A stretch of 64,000 bases of DNA from Natronomonas salinimetallica (GTDB lineage Archaea; Halobacteriota; Halobacteria; Halobacteriales; Haloarculaceae): contig NZ_JACDNQ010000003.1 of the NCBI RefSeq assembly GCF_013839515.1, positions 62,001-126,000 on the forward strand. Reading direction: 5' to 3'. Shown here piece after piece: positions 22,193-29,474 of this stretch (positions are counted from its first letter, which is position 1; each line of letters opens with the position of its first letter). The notes below the pieces were generated by a model, which saw only the letters and a program-made list of their open reading frames with translations, did not search any database and was not told the origin of the DNA. Made by a program: the position numbers and the translations under genes.

Positions 22193-24217
22193 ATGCTCGT
22201 ATTCGACGTGCTCTTGGTCGGTGAGGCCCCCTCCCGCCGAGCCGTTCTGGAGTCGTTTCCCGACGACATCGTCGATACGACGGTGGTCTCGGGGGCTGAC
22301 GACGCGCTCGAGGTACTCGAGACGACCGGCTCCGACTGCGTCGTCACCGACTACGACCTCCCGGCTCGCGACGGGCTCGACCTCCTCGCGTCGGTCCGGG
22401 AGTCGTTCCCGGCGCTGCCGGTCGTCGTATACACGGCGGACGGCGACGAGGCCGTCGCCGAGGCGGCTATCGACGCGGGCGTGACCGCCTACGTCCCCGC
22501 GAGCGACGGTTCGGGCGGTGACGGGATTGCCGACCGGGCGATCGAGCAAGCGCGACGGAACCACGTCTCGACGACGGTGGACGAGTCGGACCCGACCGCC
22601 GCGAACCTGAAACTCGCCGAGTTGGCGATGGACGAAGCGCCGGTCGGGATCACGGTCGCCGACCCCAACGAATCCGACGAGCCGCTCATATACGTCAACG
22701 ACGCGTTCGAACGACTCACCGGATACGATACCTTCGAGATCCTCGGCCGGAACTGTCGGTTCCTCCAGGGCGAGGGGACCGACCCCGAGACGGTCGAACG
22801 GGTCCGACAGGCCGTCGACGATCGGCGACCGATCTCCGTCGAGATACTCAACTACCGCAAGAACGGTGAGCCGTTCTGGAACCAGTTGAACATCGCGCCC
22901 GTAACGAACGACGACGACGAACTCACCCACTTTCTTGGGTTTCAAACCGACGTCACGGAACGAAAGGAGATCGAACTCCGCTCACAGCGACAGGCCGAAC
23001 AGCTCCGCGCCGACCGGCGGGCCCGCGAACGCCTTCTCGCCCGCCTCGACGGCATCATCCAGCGCGTGACTGCCTCGACGGTCAACAGCACGTCCCGAGC
23101 GGAGCTAGAGGAGCGCGTCTGTAAAGCGATCCTCGAGACGAACGACTACGAGGCCGCGTGGTTCGGGACGCGGCAGGCGACGAGTGACCGCATCGTGGTC
23201 AACGAACGGGCGGGCTGTGGGGGTGCCGACGAACCCGCTATCCCGGCCGATGCGCCCGACGACCCCGCCGACGAGGCGATCCGGAACGGGACCGTGACGA
23301 TCGCCGAAACCGGATCGTTGCGGCCGGAATCGCCACACGGCCGCTTTGCGCCCCCGGACGGCGGACTCGCGGCGATACCGCTTCGGTATCGCGACGCGGA
23401 TTACGGCGTTTTGGTCGTATACGTCTCCCAGTCGGCCCCCCTCGACGACCACGAGACCGCGGTCTTCGAGGCGCTCGGTCGGGTGATCGGGACCGGCATC
23501 AACGCCCTCCAGAACCAGCGGCTGTTGGCCACCGACGAGTACCTCGAGTTGACGTTTACCGGGCGTCCCCCCGCTCCCGTCCCTGCGGAGTTGGCCGCCC
23601 AGGCGGACTGTGAGATCACATACCGGGGTGCCGTCTCCCGTAGCGATGGCCAGTTCGTCCTGTCGGCTCTCGTCTCCGGGGCAGCCTTCGCCGACATCGA
23701 GGAAGCCGCCGCGACGCTGTCCCGGCCGCCGAACGTGAGCCTGGTCGCCTCCTACGACGACGCGTGTCTCGTCGAGATCGTACCGGCCGGGGCGTCCGTC
23801 GTCCGGACGGTGCTCGATCACAACGGCTCGATCCGGTCCCTGTCGGCCGACGGAGACGTCGTCGACCTCCGGATCGAGATCCCACAGACGACAAACCCCA
23901 ATACGGTGGTCGGTGCCGTCCTCGACCGGTACGGGGGGCTCTCGCTGTCCTCTCAGCGCCGGCGCGAGCGCGATCGGGACTCCCGAAAGGAACTCACCGA
24001 GTCGCTCCGCGCCAACCTCACGGACAGACAACTCGAGGCGATCCAGAAGGCGTATCTGAGCGACTACTTCGAGTGGCCGCGCCCGGTCTCCGGCGAGTCC
24101 ATCGCCGATTCGATGGGCATCACCCGATCGACGTTCCACCAGCACCTCCGCGCCGCCCAATCGAAGATCATCGGGGAACTCCTCGAAGACGTCAAACTCC
24201 CGCGAAAGCCCAACTAG
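22193..24217 (+). CDS. bat: Bat-type regulator with receiver-like, LOV-PAS, GAF and HTH domains
   Basis: The 674-residue protein has, in order: a receiver-like domain (1-115, phosphoacceptor-like DCVVTDYDLPARDG), a PAS domain (about 145-260) with the LOV signature GRNCRFLQG whose Cys188 is the flavin-adduct position, a coiled linker, a GAF domain (about 300-440), a bacterioopsin-activator middle domain, and a C-terminal HTH-10 (LTDRQLEAIQKAYLSDYFEW to SIADSMGITRSTFHQHLRAA). Bat activates bop, brp and crtB genes in response to low oxygen and light. Here it stands upstream of crtY, blh and hop, and candidate Bat sites occur at 24208 and 26383. Binding of flavin and the light response are inferred from the LOV motif. 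Confidence 0.9.
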   Translation: MLVFDVLLVGEAPSRRAVLESFPDDIVDTTVVSGADDALEVLETTGSDCVVTDYDLPARDGLDLLASVRESFPALPVVVYTADGDEAVAEAAIDAGVTAYVPASDGSGGDGIADRAIEQARRNHVSTTVDESDPTAANLKLAELAMDEAPVGITVADPNESDEPLIYVNDAFERLTGYDTFEILGRNCRFLQGEGTDPETVERVRQAVDDRRPISVEILNYRKNGEPFWNQLNIAPVTNDDDELTHFLGFQTDVTERKEIELRSQRQAEQLRADRRARERLLARLDGIIQRVTASTVNSTSRAELEERVCKAILETNDYEAAWFGTRQATSDRIVVNERAGCGGADEPAIPADAPDDPADEAIRNGTVTIAETGSLRPESPHGRFAPPDGGLAAIPLRYRDADYGVLVVYVSQSAPLDDHETAVFEALGRVIGTGINALQNQRLLATDEYLELTFTGRPPAPVPAELAAQADCEITYRGAVSRSDGQFVLSALVSGAAFADIEEAAATLSRPPNVSLVASYDDACLVEIVPAGASVVRTVLDHNGSIRSLSADGDVVDLRIEIPQTTNPNTVVGAVLDRYGGLSLSSQRRRERDRDSRKELTESLRANLTDRQLEAIQKAYLSDYFEWPRPVSGESIADSMGITRSTFHQHLRAAQSKIIGELLEDVKLPRKPN

Positions 24218-24259: not shown

Positions 24260-24436
24260 ATGACAGCCGACCCGCGGTCCCGGACGTTCCTGTCGACGCC
24301 GTGTCCCGAGCAGTCAGCCGGAGCACTCGGGTCGACGGAGGCACCGATCGGGACGCTCGGGTCGACGGAGGCACCGACCGGGACGCTCGGGTCGACGGAG
24401 GCACCGATCGGGACGCTCGGGCCGGGGAAACGATGA
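24260..24436 (+). CDS. Small leader ORF coupled to lycopene cyclase
   Basis: A frame of 58 codons (MTADPRSRTFLSTPCPEQSA onward) begins 45 bases after the Bat-type site and ends with TGA overlapping the ATG of crtY (ATGA at 24433). Its second half is three copies of a ten-residue unit GSTEAP(I/T)GTL encoded by the 30-bp tandem repeat. It may be a leader peptide that couples translation to crtY; it has no known domain. The upstream bases CGGATTTGTACGT occur twice just before the ATG. Confidence 0.5.
   Translation: MTADPRSRTFLSTPCPEQSAGALGSTEAPIGTLGSTEAPTGTLGSTEAPIGTLGPGKR
24331..24420 (+). repeat. Three tandem copies of a 30-bp unit
   Basis: Units 24331-24360, 24361-24390 and 24391-24420 start GTCGACGGAGGCACCGA and differ at one base (the middle unit has C for T). 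The length keeps the leader frame open, so copy number could vary without a frameshift. Confidence 0.9.
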
Positions 24437-25278
24437 CGCCGACGACGTATCTCGGGTTGCACCTCCGATTCATTCTCCCGCCGATACTGCTCGTCGGGCT
24501 CCTCGCGTACCGCCGTCCCGCCGCATCGTGGGGCCGCGTTCCGTTCGCCGGCCTCGGTGTCATTCTCGTGTTAGCCGTCGGATACACGACGCCGTGGGAC
24601 AACCTCCTCATCGAGCAGGGCGTCTGGACGTACGGCGGGGGCGTCACTGCCGCCCACGTCTGGGCCGCGCCGATCGGGGAGTACCTCTTTTTTATTCTCC
24701 AGCCGCTGTTGGTCGCGCTATGGCTCTACAACCTCGATATCCCGACCGAGGGTGGCCTCCGGATTCCGATCGGGACGCGGGCTCTCGGCCTCGTGGCCGG
24801 TCTCGCCGTCGTCGCGGTCGGTGTCGGGTTGGTTCTTTCGGGGCCTTCGACGCTGTATCTGGGCGCGATCCTCGGGTGGGCCGGGCCGATCCTCGCAATC
24901 CAGTGGGCGTTCGGGTGGCCACACCTGCTCCGTGCCTGGAAAGCCGTCGCCGCCGGGATCGGCGTCCCGACCGTCTATCTGTGGGCCGTCGACTGGTATG
25001 CGATCACGAACGGGCTCTGGACCCTCTCCGATACGTATACCGTCGGGATCGCACCGTTCGGCCTGCCGATCGAGGAGGCGCTCTTTTTTTTCATCACGAA
25101 CGCCTTCATCGTCCAGGGGCTGGTGTTGTACCTGTGGCTCGTCGACCAGTGGCCGACGGTCGCTCCCGACGTCCGGGCGGCCGTACCCCCCGCCTTCGAG
25201 AAGCTGTGTCCCTCCCGCACGCCGGTAGCCGCGACCGAGACCGAAGGGGGCGAGGACCGTGACCGAACCGCTACCTGA
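24433..25278 (+). CDS. crtY: Lycopene beta-cyclase (fused CrtYc/CrtYd type)
   Basis: ATG 24433 gives 281 residues; the frame is open upstream but lies over bat. The protein has about seven membrane segments and duplicated cyclase motifs (PWDNLLIEQGVWTYGG with EYLFFILQPLL in the first half, DWYAITNGLWTLSD with IEEALFFFITN in the second), the pattern of the fused CrtYc-CrtYd carotenoid cyclase of Haloarchaea and fungi. It turns lycopene into beta-carotene, the retinal precursor. It overlaps the Brp/Blh gene by 20 bases, so one transcript likely serves both. Confidence 0.9.
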   Translation: MTPTTYLGLHLRFILPPILLVGLLAYRRPAASWGRVPFAGLGVILVLAVGYTTPWDNLLIEQGVWTYGGGVTAAHVWAAPIGEYLFFILQPLLVALWLYNLDIPTEGGLRIPIGTRALGLVAGLAVVAVGVGLVLSGPSTLYLGAILGWAGPILAIQWAFGWPHLLRAWKAVAAGIGVPTVYLWAVDWYAITNGLWTLSDTYTVGIAPFGLPIEEALFFFITNAFIVQGLVLYLWLVDQWPTVAPDVRAAVPPAFEKLCPSRTPVAATETEGGEDRDRTAT

Positions 25279-26330
25279 CCGGCGGGCTGTCGCCGCCCGC
25301 CGGCCGGCCGAAACGACGGCGGTGCTGTTTTGGCTCGCCTTCGTGCCCGGTTGGGCCGTCGTGGCCGCGACGACGCTCGGCTTCGCCGCCGGTCTCTCGC
25401 TCCCGCAGTCCTACCAGTTGGTTCCGCTCGCCGTCAGTGTCGTCGTCCTCGGCCTCCCACACGGTGCTATCGACCACCTCGCGATCCCCCGGACCCGCGG
25501 CGAGGCGGTCACCGGTCGGTGGCTGGCCACCGTCGGCGTGCTGTATCTCCTCGTCGGTGGGGGATACGCCGCCGTCTGGTTTCTCGACCCCGCCGCAGCC
25601 GTCGGGTTCTTCGTTCTTTTGACGTGGGCTCATTGGGGACAAGGGGACGTCTATCCCCTCGTCGTGCTGTCGGAGGGCGAACACCCTGCCGGCCGGATCG
25701 GACGCGCCCTGACGGCTGCGACGCGGGGCGCGCTCCCGATGGGGGTTCCGTTCGTCTCGTTCCCCGAGCAGTACGAACTCGTCGTCGGGACGCTTGCGGG
25801 GCTGTTCGACCCGGCGGCCCCGGCGGCGCTTTCGGCCGTCTTCACCCCGAGGGCTCGATTGGCAGTCGCGGCCGTAATCGCCGGACTCATCTCGCTCTCG
25901 CTCGCCATCGGTGTCGTCTCGGCGGCCGGCGGTGACCGTCGTACGCTCTACGTCGACGCTGCCGAGACCGGGTTGCTCGTCGCCTTCTTTTGGACCGTCC
26001 CCCCCGATCTTCGCGGTCGGGCTGTACTTCTGTGTCTGGCACGCCCTCCGGCACATCGTCCGACTGCTCGCCGTCGATCCGACCGCCGCCGCCGCCCTCG
26101 AATCCCGGCGATACGGGGCCGCGATATCGGCGTTCGTTCGGGACGCCGCGCCCCTGACCGCCGTCTCACTCGGTCTGCTCGGATCGCTGTATCTCGTCGT
26201 TCCCGGGACGGTCACCGACCCGTTAGCGCTCGTCGGGACCTACCTCGTGTTGATCGCGGTGCTCACGCTGCCGCACGTCGTCGTCGTGACCGTGATGGAC
26301 TACGAACAGCGGATCTGGACGCCGGCGTGA
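25259..26330 (+). pseudogene. blh: Brp/Blh-type beta-carotene dioxygenase, frameshifted
   Basis: The gene starts at GTG 25259 inside crtY. The first frame encodes membrane segments with LGLPHGAIDHLAIPRTRG, FFVLLTWAHWGQGDVYPL and others up to FFWTVPP; at a run of seven C (25999-26005) the frame shifts by one and the correct continuation PPIFAVGLYFCVWHALRHIV, with family His residues, is found one frame over and runs to TGA 26330. With six C the protein would be 356 residues, the usual family length. The enzyme cleaves beta-carotene to retinal for halorhodopsin. It may be a sequencing slip, a phase-variable tract or a true mutation. Confidence 0.8.
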
Positions 26331-26382
26331 TGCGGATCGGTGCCCCCCGCCGTCCTCGATACGACACAGCCGGACGCCGCAT

Positions 26383-26397
26383 ACCGTACTAGTAAGG
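26383..26397 (+). promoter_or_regulatory. Bat-type upstream activating sequence before hop
   Basis: ACCGTACTAGTAAGG matches the Bat site consensus ACC-C-N-ACTAG-TT-N-GG at nearly all fixed positions. Its centre lies 51 bases before ATG 26441. Together with the site at 24208 this places the whole cluster under Bat. Confidence 0.65.
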
Positions 26398-26440: not shown

Positions 26441-27319
26441 ATGACACACAAGACCCTGCTATCGGCACCGGACTCGGTCCTCACGCCCCAACAGACCGGG
26501 GTGACACAGACGGAACTGTTCGAGTACGTCCTCGGGGATCCACTCCTCGCGAGTTCGCTGTACGTAAACATCGCCCTCGCGGGGCTGGCGCTGGTGTTCT
26601 TCGTCTTCATGGCGAAGGACCTCCAGGATCCCCGCGCGAAACTCATCGCCGTCTCGGTGCTTCTCGTCCCGACTGTTTCCGTCGCGAGCTACACCGGACT
26701 CGCCTCCGGGCTCACGATCGGCGTACTCGAGATGCCGGCCGGACACGCGGCCGAGAACGCGTCGGTGATGATCGGCGGCGAACCGGTCGACGGCGTCATC
26801 TCGCTGTGGGGGCGGTATCTGACGTGGGCGCTGTCGACGCCCGCGATCTTGCTCGCGCTCGGACTGCTTGCGGGCTCGGATTCGACGTCTATCTTCACCG
26901 CGATCACCTTCGATATCGCGATGTGTATCACGGGGCTCGCCGCCGCGTTGACGACCTCCTCACACATCCTGCGGTGGTTCTGGTACTTCATCAGCTGTGC
27001 GTGCTTTGCGGTCGTCATCTACGTTCTGCTCGCGAAGTGGCCCGCCGACGCCGCGGCCGCCGGCACCGCGAGCGTCTTCAACACGCTGAAGCTCCTGACG
27101 GTCGTCCTGTGGCTCGGCTACCCGATCGTGTGGGCGCTCGGCGTCGAGGGAATCGCCGTCCTGCCGGTCGGCATCACCTCGTGGGCCTACAGCCTGCTCG
27201 ACGTCGTCGCGAAGTACGTCTTCGCGTTCCTGTTGCTCAGATACGTCACCTCGAACGAGAGTGCCGTCTCGGGTGACGTCCTCGACGTTCCGTCCTCGGC
27301 CGCACCCGCCGACGACTGA
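26441..27319 (+). CDS. hop: Halorhodopsin, light-driven chloride pump
   Basis: The 292-residue retinal protein has seven membrane helices. Helix C reads RYLTWALSTPAILLALG, with Thr128 and Ser132 at the positions of Asp85 and Thr89 of bacteriorhodopsin, the anion-pump pattern. Helix G has LLDVVAKYVFAFLLL with Lys258 as the Schiff-base lysine. Helix D-E (FDIAMCITGLAAALTTSSHI) is nearly identical to known halorhodopsins. The protein moves chloride into the cell on light. It needs retinal, which depends on crtY and the frameshifted blh just upstream. No bacteriorhodopsin gene is visible in the window. Confidence 0.95.
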   Translation: MTHKTLLSAPDSVLTPQQTGVTQTELFEYVLGDPLLASSLYVNIALAGLALVFFVFMAKDLQDPRAKLIAVSVLLVPTVSVASYTGLASGLTIGVLEMPAGHAAENASVMIGGEPVDGVISLWGRYLTWALSTPAILLALGLLAGSDSTSIFTAITFDIAMCITGLAAALTTSSHILRWFWYFISCACFAVVIYVLLAKWPADAAAAGTASVFNTLKLLTVVLWLGYPIVWALGVEGIAVLPVGITSWAYSLLDVVAKYVFAFLLLRYVTSNESAVSGDVLDVPSSAAPADD

Positions 27320-27519: not shown

Positions 27520-27540
27520 CTTCTATCTTGATACAGCGAG

Positions 27541-27630
27541 AGAATCCCGCCCTTCTCGTGAGTGACGAGCGTTCCGACGTTCTGTCGGAACCGAGGAACG
27601 AACAGGGCGGGAGTGAATCGCGTAAACTCT
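27541..27630 (+). mobile_element. Degenerate IS end with hairpin
   Basis: CCCGCCCT (27547-27554) pairs with AGGGCGGG about 60 bases later, and the flanks GAATCCCGCCCTT look like the right-end hairpins of haloarchaeal IS200/IS605 elements. It follows the 3' end of tRNA-Ser and precedes the TnpB gene, so it may be left from an older insertion. Confidence 0.35.
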
Positions 27631-27717
27631 GGGAAGATATCACCCTTGTTCCTACTGGCTGGATATTCAACGCTGGCCGAGGTCATTAAGTAATTACGCT
27701 GTCATAGGCTATGTATA

Positions 27718-28971
27718 GTGAATCTGGTCACGACACGTACCATTACAGCGGCACTTACCAACGACCGTGAGGGTGTCGTGCGTGATCTTGATTCACTCGC
27801 TCGTTCCGGCAGTAAAATCTGGAATGTAGCTCGGTGGACCGCTGGCCGCATCTGGGACCACACCGGAGAAATACCCGATGAAGGACCGCTCAAGTCCTAC
27901 ATGAAGAACCAACAGTGCTGGAAAGATTTGAATGCCCAATCAAGCCAGGCAATCGTCGAAGAATTGGCTGGCGCTTTCCAGTCGTGGTTCGAACAAAACG
28001 ATCCAGACGCCAACCCACCGGGCTACCGCAAAGACGGCGATGAACGACCACGTAGCACGGTCACGTTCAAAGAAGACGGGTTCAAACTCGATACGAAACA
28101 TCAGCAGGTCCGTCTCTCGAAAGGCAAGAACCTCAAAGACGACTGGAGCGACTTCATCCTCTGCGAATACGACACTGGTCCAGACACAGACCTGACCGAC
28201 GTAGAAGACGTACAACAGGTCCGAACCGTCTGGAACGGCGACCAGTGGGAACTGCACTTCGTCTGCAAAGTCAGTATTGACGCCGCCGACTCGTCTGGTG
28301 AGAAGACGGCTGGTGTTGACCTCGGTATCTGCAACACTGCCGCTGTCTCCGTCGGTGACGAGACACTGCTGTATCCAGGGAATGCCCTGAAAGAAGACGC
28401 CCGCTACTTCCGACAAAAAGAATACGATACGGAAGGCGAAAACGGCCCCAGCAACCATGCTGAGTGGGCACGTCGAAAGAAATCACAGCGACAGGCTCAC
28501 TTCCTGCACGCTCTCTCGAAAGACATCGTCGAGCAATGTGCTGAACGTAGCGTGGTGACGATAGCGGTCGGGCATCCGAAGGACATTCGTGAGGATGAAG
28601 ACTGGGGGCGTCACGGGAACAAGCGTCTGCACGACTGGGCGTTTGAAACCCTGCTGAGTCACATTGAGTACAAAGCCGAACAACACGGGATTGACGTAGA
28701 GCGTGTTGATGAGGCAGGGCTGAAAACGTCGAAGACATGTTGTGTGTGCGGGATGAAAGCGGATTCAAACCGTGTTGAACGTGGCTTATACGTCTGTGAG
28801 AACTGCGACCTGGTCGCAAATAGTGACCTGAATGCGGCTGAAAATATGCGAAAGACGGTAACTCCGAGTCCGTCACAGGATAGGAGTAACGGCTGTCTGG
28901 CCCAGCCATGGGTCCGCCTGTTCGATAAACAGACGGGGAGCGTAGCCCCACAAGAACAGGTACGACCGTAG
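27718..28971 (+). CDS. tnpB: TnpB-type RNA-guided nuclease of an IS200/IS605-family element
   Basis: The 417-residue protein has the RuvC-like core: GVDLGICNTAAVSVGDE (first Asp), the region VVTIAVGHPKDIREDEDW where the second acidic residue normally sits, the zinc finger CCVCGMKADSN ... CENCD, and NSDLNAAENM (third Asp). The canonical Glu of the second motif is replaced by Gly-His, though Glu occurs a few residues on in IREDED. No tnpA is near, so this is a TnpB-only (IS1341-like) element. TnpB proteins are RNA-guided DNA nucleases using an RNA from the 3' end of their own element. Confidence 0.85.
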   Translation: MNLVTTRTITAALTNDREGVVRDLDSLARSGSKIWNVARWTAGRIWDHTGEIPDEGPLKSYMKNQQCWKDLNAQSSQAIVEELAGAFQSWFEQNDPDANPPGYRKDGDERPRSTVTFKEDGFKLDTKHQQVRLSKGKNLKDDWSDFILCEYDTGPDTDLTDVEDVQQVRTVWNGDQWELHFVCKVSIDAADSSGEKTAGVDLGICNTAAVSVGDETLLYPGNALKEDARYFRQKEYDTEGENGPSNHAEWARRKKSQRQAHFLHALSKDIVEQCAERSVVTIAVGHPKDIREDEDWGRHGNKRLHDWAFETLLSHIEYKAEQHGIDVERVDEAGLKTSKTCCVCGMKADSNRVERGLYVCENCDLVANSDLNAAENMRKTVTPSPSQDRSNGCLAQPWVRLFDKQTGSVAPQEQVRP

Positions 28972-29040
28972 ACCAGCAAATATCCCAACGCTGCGGTGCG
29001 GTTCGGGAAGCCTCGCCGTTTACGGCGAGGAGGAGGTCAC
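28900..29040 (+). mobile_element. Right end of the TnpB element, candidate guide-RNA region
   Basis: The end of tnpB and the next 70 bases contain the perfect hairpin CCTCGCCGTTTACGGCGAGG (29011-29030), followed by AGGAGGTCAC, the form of right ends in IS200/IS605 elements. In this family the omega RNA overlaps the 3' part of tnpB and its guide starts just past the right end, here about 29040. The exact edge is inferred. Confidence 0.55.
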
Positions 29041-29130
29041 CACCTATCCTGCGGTGAACGGCGGGACTCCCTCGCTGAATTGTAGTAGCGATCGGAAGAC
29101 AATACACACTCGACCGCACGCTGTCAGTGC

Positions 29131-29165
29131 GATCGATGTGTACATAGTTGCGATGTTCACTATAG
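29131..29165 (+). repeat. 35-bp repeat, copy 2
   Basis: Matches the complement of 17982-18016 with one difference. It lies about 90 bases after the TnpB right end. See copy 1. Confidence 0.75.
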
Positions 29166-29246
29166 CTGGCAAACCACCCGGACAGCGACGCAGAGCGCTA
29201 CCGTCGAGAAACGGGAGAACCCAGCCGCTTGCGGAGGGCGGAGACG

Positions 29247-29474
29247 TCACTCGACGCCCGATCTGTCGCCGGCGATACCGCCCTCGATGGCGATCCATCC
29301 AAGCGCGGAGATGAAGATCACCGGCGGAACCAAGAGCGCACCCCAGATCGGGTTCATGTCCCACTGGAGGATCAACAGGACGTTCCCGATCCCGAGTATA
29401 CAAAGCGGAATGACGATCACGGCGGCCTTCCGGCTCCCCGAGGAGCGTTCGCTGGGATCGTTCACGTCGCCCAT
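29247..29474 (-). CDS. Small two-helix membrane protein
   Basis: ATG 29474 (MGDVNDPSERSSGSRKAAVI) gives 75 residues with two hydrophobic stretches, AAVIVIPLCILGIGNVLLIL and GALLVPPVIFISALGWIAI. It probably spans the membrane twice with both ends inside. No family recognised. It stands alone between the TnpB element and the next small gene. Confidence 0.6.
   Translation of the reverse strand: MGDVNDPSERSSGSRKAAVIVIPLCILGIGNVLLILQWDMNPIWGALLVPPVIFISALGWIAIEGGIAGDRSGVE

Follow-up and report, generated by a model that had tools for sequence, protein, structure and literature searches.

The window analysed here is a stretch of 64 000 bp from a Natronomonas salinimetallica draft genome. It includes a blh gene in which the reading frame changes within a run of seven C, together with the neighbouring genes listed in Table 1.

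Table 1. Genes and features at the blh locus (positions in the window)
Feature	Position	Strand	Evidence or remark
bat-type regulator gene, upstream, open	22193..24217	+	Pfam: response regulator, PAS, GAF, BAT, HTH_10
Lycopene-cyclase-domain gene, open	24433..25278	+	TIGR03462, E 3.7e-40; overlaps the blh start
blh, whole	25259-26330	+	Brp/Blh gene, frame changes within the seven-C run
blh, first part, residues 1-249, in frame as far as the C run	25259..26005	+	PF15461 1-175, E 1.1e-42; TIGR03753
Seven-C run, site of the frame change	25999..26005	+	Sequence; frame switch of the coding HMM; sole seven-C row of 78 aligned
blh, second part, in the other frame, with the WHxxRH histidine pair	26004..26330	+	PF15461 173-267, E 2.9e-31; dN/dS 0.19; invariant histidines
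Out-of-frame tail of the first frame, ending at a stop	26006..26392	+	Translation
Halorhodopsin gene, open	26441..27319	+	PF01036, E 3.2e-53

The blh locus

The first blh frame begins with a GTG at 25259, is out of frame past residue 249 and stops at 26392, giving 377 aa in total. The second frame is open from 25911 to 26330, and positions 173-259 of TIGR03753 are matched there. The full Brp/Blh profile is thus covered, but across two frames. A three-periodic coding HMM, which is independent of the profile matches, also switches frame at the C tract. A preliminary description of this DNA had placed the break in the seven-C run, with the Brp/Blh domain in the first frame and its continuation in the other, and both statements are borne out. 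In nearly all homologues found with tblastn, the two halves lie in a single frame. Among the 78 blh loci compared, frame shifts were seen in L074 and L103; another six, L106-L111, are distant and gave a partial match only. A phmmer comparison of the first part of Blh with solved structures found nothing credible, the best hit having E 0.04.

According to PMC9227343, replacement of His21, His78, His188 or His192 in the 66A03 enzyme leaves <5 % activity. Judged by motif and spacing, their likely counterparts in the window Blh are residues 68 and 125, upstream of the break, and the WHxxRH pair downstream of it. The four predicted metal-binding histidines are invariant in the aligned homologues (68/68, 68/68, 67/67 and 68/68, the WHxxRH pair being the 67/67 and 68/68). 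No one open frame in the window holds all four, because the frame change separates the first two from the last two. Because the out-of-frame end loses two of the four essential histidines, the shifted Blh product, lacking its final helices and the iron ligands of the WHxxRH motif, should be inactive.

The halorhodopsin gene adjoining blh is intact, as had been described. Its open frame encodes a protein 78 % identical over 275 residues to a homologue in G007, and the context of the retinal lysine is conserved, with LDVVAKY aligned to LDIVAKY of that homologue. Both the rhodopsin fold profile and the retinal lysine of the last helix are therefore present. We take G007 to be N. pharaonis and its protein to be the N. 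pharaonis halorhodopsin. The level of identity to the G007 protein suggests that the window gene encodes a pump for light-driven inward transport of chloride.

Two further features of the region were recorded. A short tandem repeat, with three copies of a unit containing GGGACGCTCGGGTCGACGGAGGCACCGA, was seen by eye at 24320-24425, downstream of the bat-type gene and upstream of the lycopene-cyclase-domain gene. A TnpB gene (27718-28971, NF040570) lies inside a stretch of approximately 1.7 kb (27523-29266) that is missing from the matching site in G006, presumably N. moolapensis, where the flanks are approximately 110 bp apart. A tRNA-like sequence, also identified by eye, ends just 5′ of the TnpB-bearing stretch.

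The C run in relatives

The length of the C run was compared in 78 aligned rows, which include the window and contain two genomes twice. The run is 2 C long in 35 rows, 3 in 32, 5 in seven and 6 in three, and only the window has 7. The Pro-Pro encoded at the tract is nearly constant in the relatives, but the codons used differ. Runs of at least seven C or G are common in the window strain, with 29 found in 466 kb of its genome.

These data bear on the three readings that had been offered for the tract, namely a sequencing slip, a pseudogene and a phase switch. If the length of the C run changed often, retinal synthesis would be switched on and off within the population. The position of the break at a homopolymer and the undecayed remainder of blh are consistent with such a switch, as is the bacteriorhodopsin gene of this strain, which is likewise broken at a homopolymer (see below). 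However, phase-variable genes have a long repeat tract whose position is conserved among relatives, and none was seen here; seven C occur in only one of the 78 rows, seven is short for such a run and runs of this length are common. A literature search combining phase variation, haloarchaea and homopolymers recovered nothing to the point. Phase variation was rejected as the leading reading on the run lengths in relatives and is the least supported of the three, because the tract is not conserved and relatives use other codons for Pro-Pro. We regard it as very unlikely.

C runs permit slippage in principle, and slippage of the ribosome or polymerase on this run could yield some full-length Blh from the gene as it stands. 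Conservation of both blh halves fits such read-through, but it is unneeded in the relatives, nearly all of which have blh in one frame, and we give it hardly any weight.

Other genes of the light system in the genome

The genome of the window strain is a draft of 2.78 Mb in 30 contigs that is 99.96 % complete, and the window lies on contig C23. The preliminary description had made retinal production depend on this blh unless a second copy exists. No further PF15461 match was found in this genome at that level of completeness, and at least one is present in 13 of the 19 other Natronomonas genomes. The close relatives of the window blh in the genus are in G006, G007, G001 and G019 (61-74 % identity over the first part), and each of these genomes has a second Brp/Blh copy. 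In G006, this second blh adjoins a gene for a bifunctional phytoene desaturase (CrtID), and the crtID-blh2 pair is flanked on one side by a DHH-family gene and on the other by a short gene of unknown function, after which comes aCPSF1. The DHH-family and aCPSF1 labels are presumptive ones, given from the sequences. The gene order is the same in G007, and most of the same neighbours are found in G001 and G019. In the window strain, only 32 bp separate the ends of the DHH gene and the short gene (C27 9976-10009, L229), and aCPSF1 comes next. The pair is thus cleanly absent, the flanking genes are intact and there is no assembly gap. Because the pair occupies the same site in the relatives, we infer that crtID-blh2 was lost in the lineage of the window strain.

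RPE65 (PF03055), the second family of carotenoid-cleaving enzymes, has one match in the genome, which covers only positions 1-55 of 469 (C1:242364-242525, L200) and continues into an unrelated end that resembles a transporter remnant. An RPE65 match is present in 12 of the 19 other Natronomonas genomes, though RPE65 members need not all be retinal-forming.

The strain has two rhodopsins, the halorhodopsin in the window and a bacteriorhodopsin on C25, and G006 has three. The bacteriorhodopsin gene, near C25 182041-182770 (L032 7976-8760, minus strand), is also broken in the assembly. The frame changes at a run of six A that follows the first helix, so that this helix and the remainder of the protein are encoded in different frames. 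In six close relatives, the frame continues unbroken across this point.

The genes for bacterioruberin on C26 are open. These are phytoene synthase, crtI (family match) and two putative lyeJ-like and cruF-like genes, labelled from gene order and sequence. A premature stop in crtI was considered and rejected, as the single reported stop is the normal end of the gene. Judging from these genes, the strain should still make bacterioruberin.

Taken together, the missing or truncated state of the other candidate retinal-making genes suggests that the light system is being lost. Our preferred reading is that blh is probably a recent slippage pseudogene within a real loss, still in progress, of both retinal synthesis and proton pumping, which makes the pseudogene the best supported of the readings offered earlier. 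Slippage by one base would have shifted the blh frame at a C run present by chance, and the product, a Brp/Blh beta-carotene 15,15′-dioxygenase, would then be inactive. This break would be one of several losses in the lineage, alongside the absence of crtID-blh2, the truncation of RPE65 and the frameshift in bacteriorhodopsin. No retinal, the light-absorbing group of the light-driven pumps, would be formed by known routes and halorhodopsin would be an unlit apoprotein, unless retinal came from outside. Halorhodopsin would then be the last open piece in a lineage losing retinal synthesis and proton pumping.

Signs of decay and of sequence error

Several observations count against a pseudogene. 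Both single-base breaks, in blh and in bacteriorhodopsin, are at homopolymers, where errors are likeliest, and the lycopene-cyclase-domain and halorhodopsin genes are still open. In addition, the broken genes show no accelerated change. The dN/dS of the second blh half relative to G006 is 0.19. Using G001, G007 and G019 as outgroups, amino acid changes on the branch of the window strain and on the G006 branch were 21/14, 17/18 and 21/20, respectively, for the first half, and 7/9, 7/8 and 9/6 for the second half. For bacteriorhodopsin, there were 7 changes in the window strain and 5-8 in G009. There is thus no faster change on the branch of the window strain in either blh half or in bacteriorhodopsin, which would also be expected of an error or of a reversible state. 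The lack of decay in either blh half indicates that the break is very young or an error.

An error of sequencing or assembly is the serious rival to a pseudogene, though clearly the less likely of the two. The blh gene of the strain would then be open and the draft would have the wrong number of C, and perhaps also of A in the bacteriorhodopsin run. Besides the single-base nature and homopolymer position of both breaks, and the well-conserved half beyond the blh break, this reading is favoured by the state of the assembly, which is a draft in 30 contigs and contains one or more runs of N, and by another draft from the genus (G017) in which blh is likewise broken at a G run.

The coding HMM was used to screen 823 kb of the genome and 417 kb of G006 for places where the frame changes and both stops are >30 bases away. 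In the window strain, 15 places were flagged (8 in 466 kb and 7 in 357 kb), compared with 2 in G006. This larger number per base counts somewhat for error. Five of the 15 were inspected; blh and a pilin-like gene look frameshifted, and L184, L187 and L196 are gene boundaries. Of the rest, one coincides with a run of N, and the other nine, each with one stop at a distance of 31-44 bases, were assumed to be gene boundaries. The pilin-like gene (C23 near 160299, L144), which is short and was labelled by eye, has a probable frameshift without a homopolymer. A separate comparison of orthologs, confined to 34 G006 genes and 45 genes of the window strain, reported further junctions at c23:222922 and c25:145916 in genes of the window strain relative to G006. 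A second junction near c23:100844 was rejected as a frameshift, as the genes are on opposite strands.

Indel errors do not look widespread in the 823 kb screened. Among 25 homopolymers of at least seven bases with coding sequence on both sides (C23 and C25), the frame is kept in 24, and the exception is blh. Two errors would both need to have struck one pathway, and neither the loss of crtID-blh2 nor the truncation of RPE65 can arise from a slip in base count. We therefore favour a real change, because two further pieces of the pathway were lost by larger changes that are beyond a base-calling slip.

Broken and missing blh genes in the class

Matches to PF15461 and PF01036 were surveyed in 391 genomes of the class that are at least 90 % complete, the genome of the window strain included. 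PF15461 was found in 239 and PF01036 in 278; 231 have both, 47 have PF01036 only and 8 have PF15461 only. In these counts, weaker second PF15461 copies are mostly unlisted and hence uncounted. Six of the 239 have no PF15461 match as strong as 1e-55, namely the window strain, G017, G249, G077, G332 and G048. The best matches in the window strain, G017 and G249 are split over two frames, G077 has an in-frame gap, G332 is partial and G048 is distant. Breaks in blh thus occur occasionally, in one case where no opsin is left to serve.

With 47 of the 278 rhodopsin genomes lacking a Brp/Blh match, several of them with strong PF01036 matches (G092, G098, G206 and G220, E <1e-65), opsins without the enzyme are not rare in the class, but many of the 47 have weak PF01036 matches and may not be pigment-binding opsins. 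These genomes are relevant to a further reading, in which blh is truly broken but neighbouring cells, or an unknown route, supply the retinal that keeps halorhodopsin useful. The halorhodopsin gene is open and without extra changes, which fits, but a very recent break in blh would leave it intact-looking even if unused. Support also comes from Aurantimicrobium minutum, which, according to PMC7734400, makes retinal without known retinal genes. We consider this reading unlikely. It is a little more doubtful still that the strain is a haloarchaeon without a known retinal route that, early in the change, keeps a usable halorhodopsin, its retinal being scavenged from neighbours or formed in some unknown way.

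If the bases are right, the recent slippage pseudogene that we prefer would be part of a snapshot of a light-energy system being dismantled, with the retinal enzymes and the proton pump gone and the chloride pump and lycopene-cyclase-domain gene still open. What makes the case interesting is that the losses are co-ordinated and that opsins without retinal of their own could be studied in it; the strain could be used to determine whether outside retinal can serve halorhodopsin. It also cautions against equating the presence of an opsin gene with a working pump.

Known kinds cover every part of the finding. The window blh shares both profile halves and the conserved histidine motifs with the Brp/Blh dioxygenases (TIGR03753, PF15461; brp and blh of Halobacterium salinarum), as well as the position beside a lycopene-cyclase-domain gene and a rhodopsin. 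It differs from them in being split over two frames, neither of which has all four histidines. G017, a Natronomonas draft, has a single frame change in its only Brp/Blh, at a six-G run in the HWGQG motif (C4:86605-87439; L020, L015), but unlike in the window strain, its bacteriorhodopsin is open. G249, whose sequence agrees with that of Halobacterium sp. KA-4 (L074) over the stretch compared, also has one frame change in its only or best Brp/Blh. However, its break lies outside any homopolymer, and that genome lacks a PF01036 match. Prokaryotes such as A. minutum, as described in PMC7734400, have in common with the window strain an opsin without a known working retinal-forming gene. They differ in that retinal was measured in A. 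minutum and in that the window strain still contains remnants of the enzymes.
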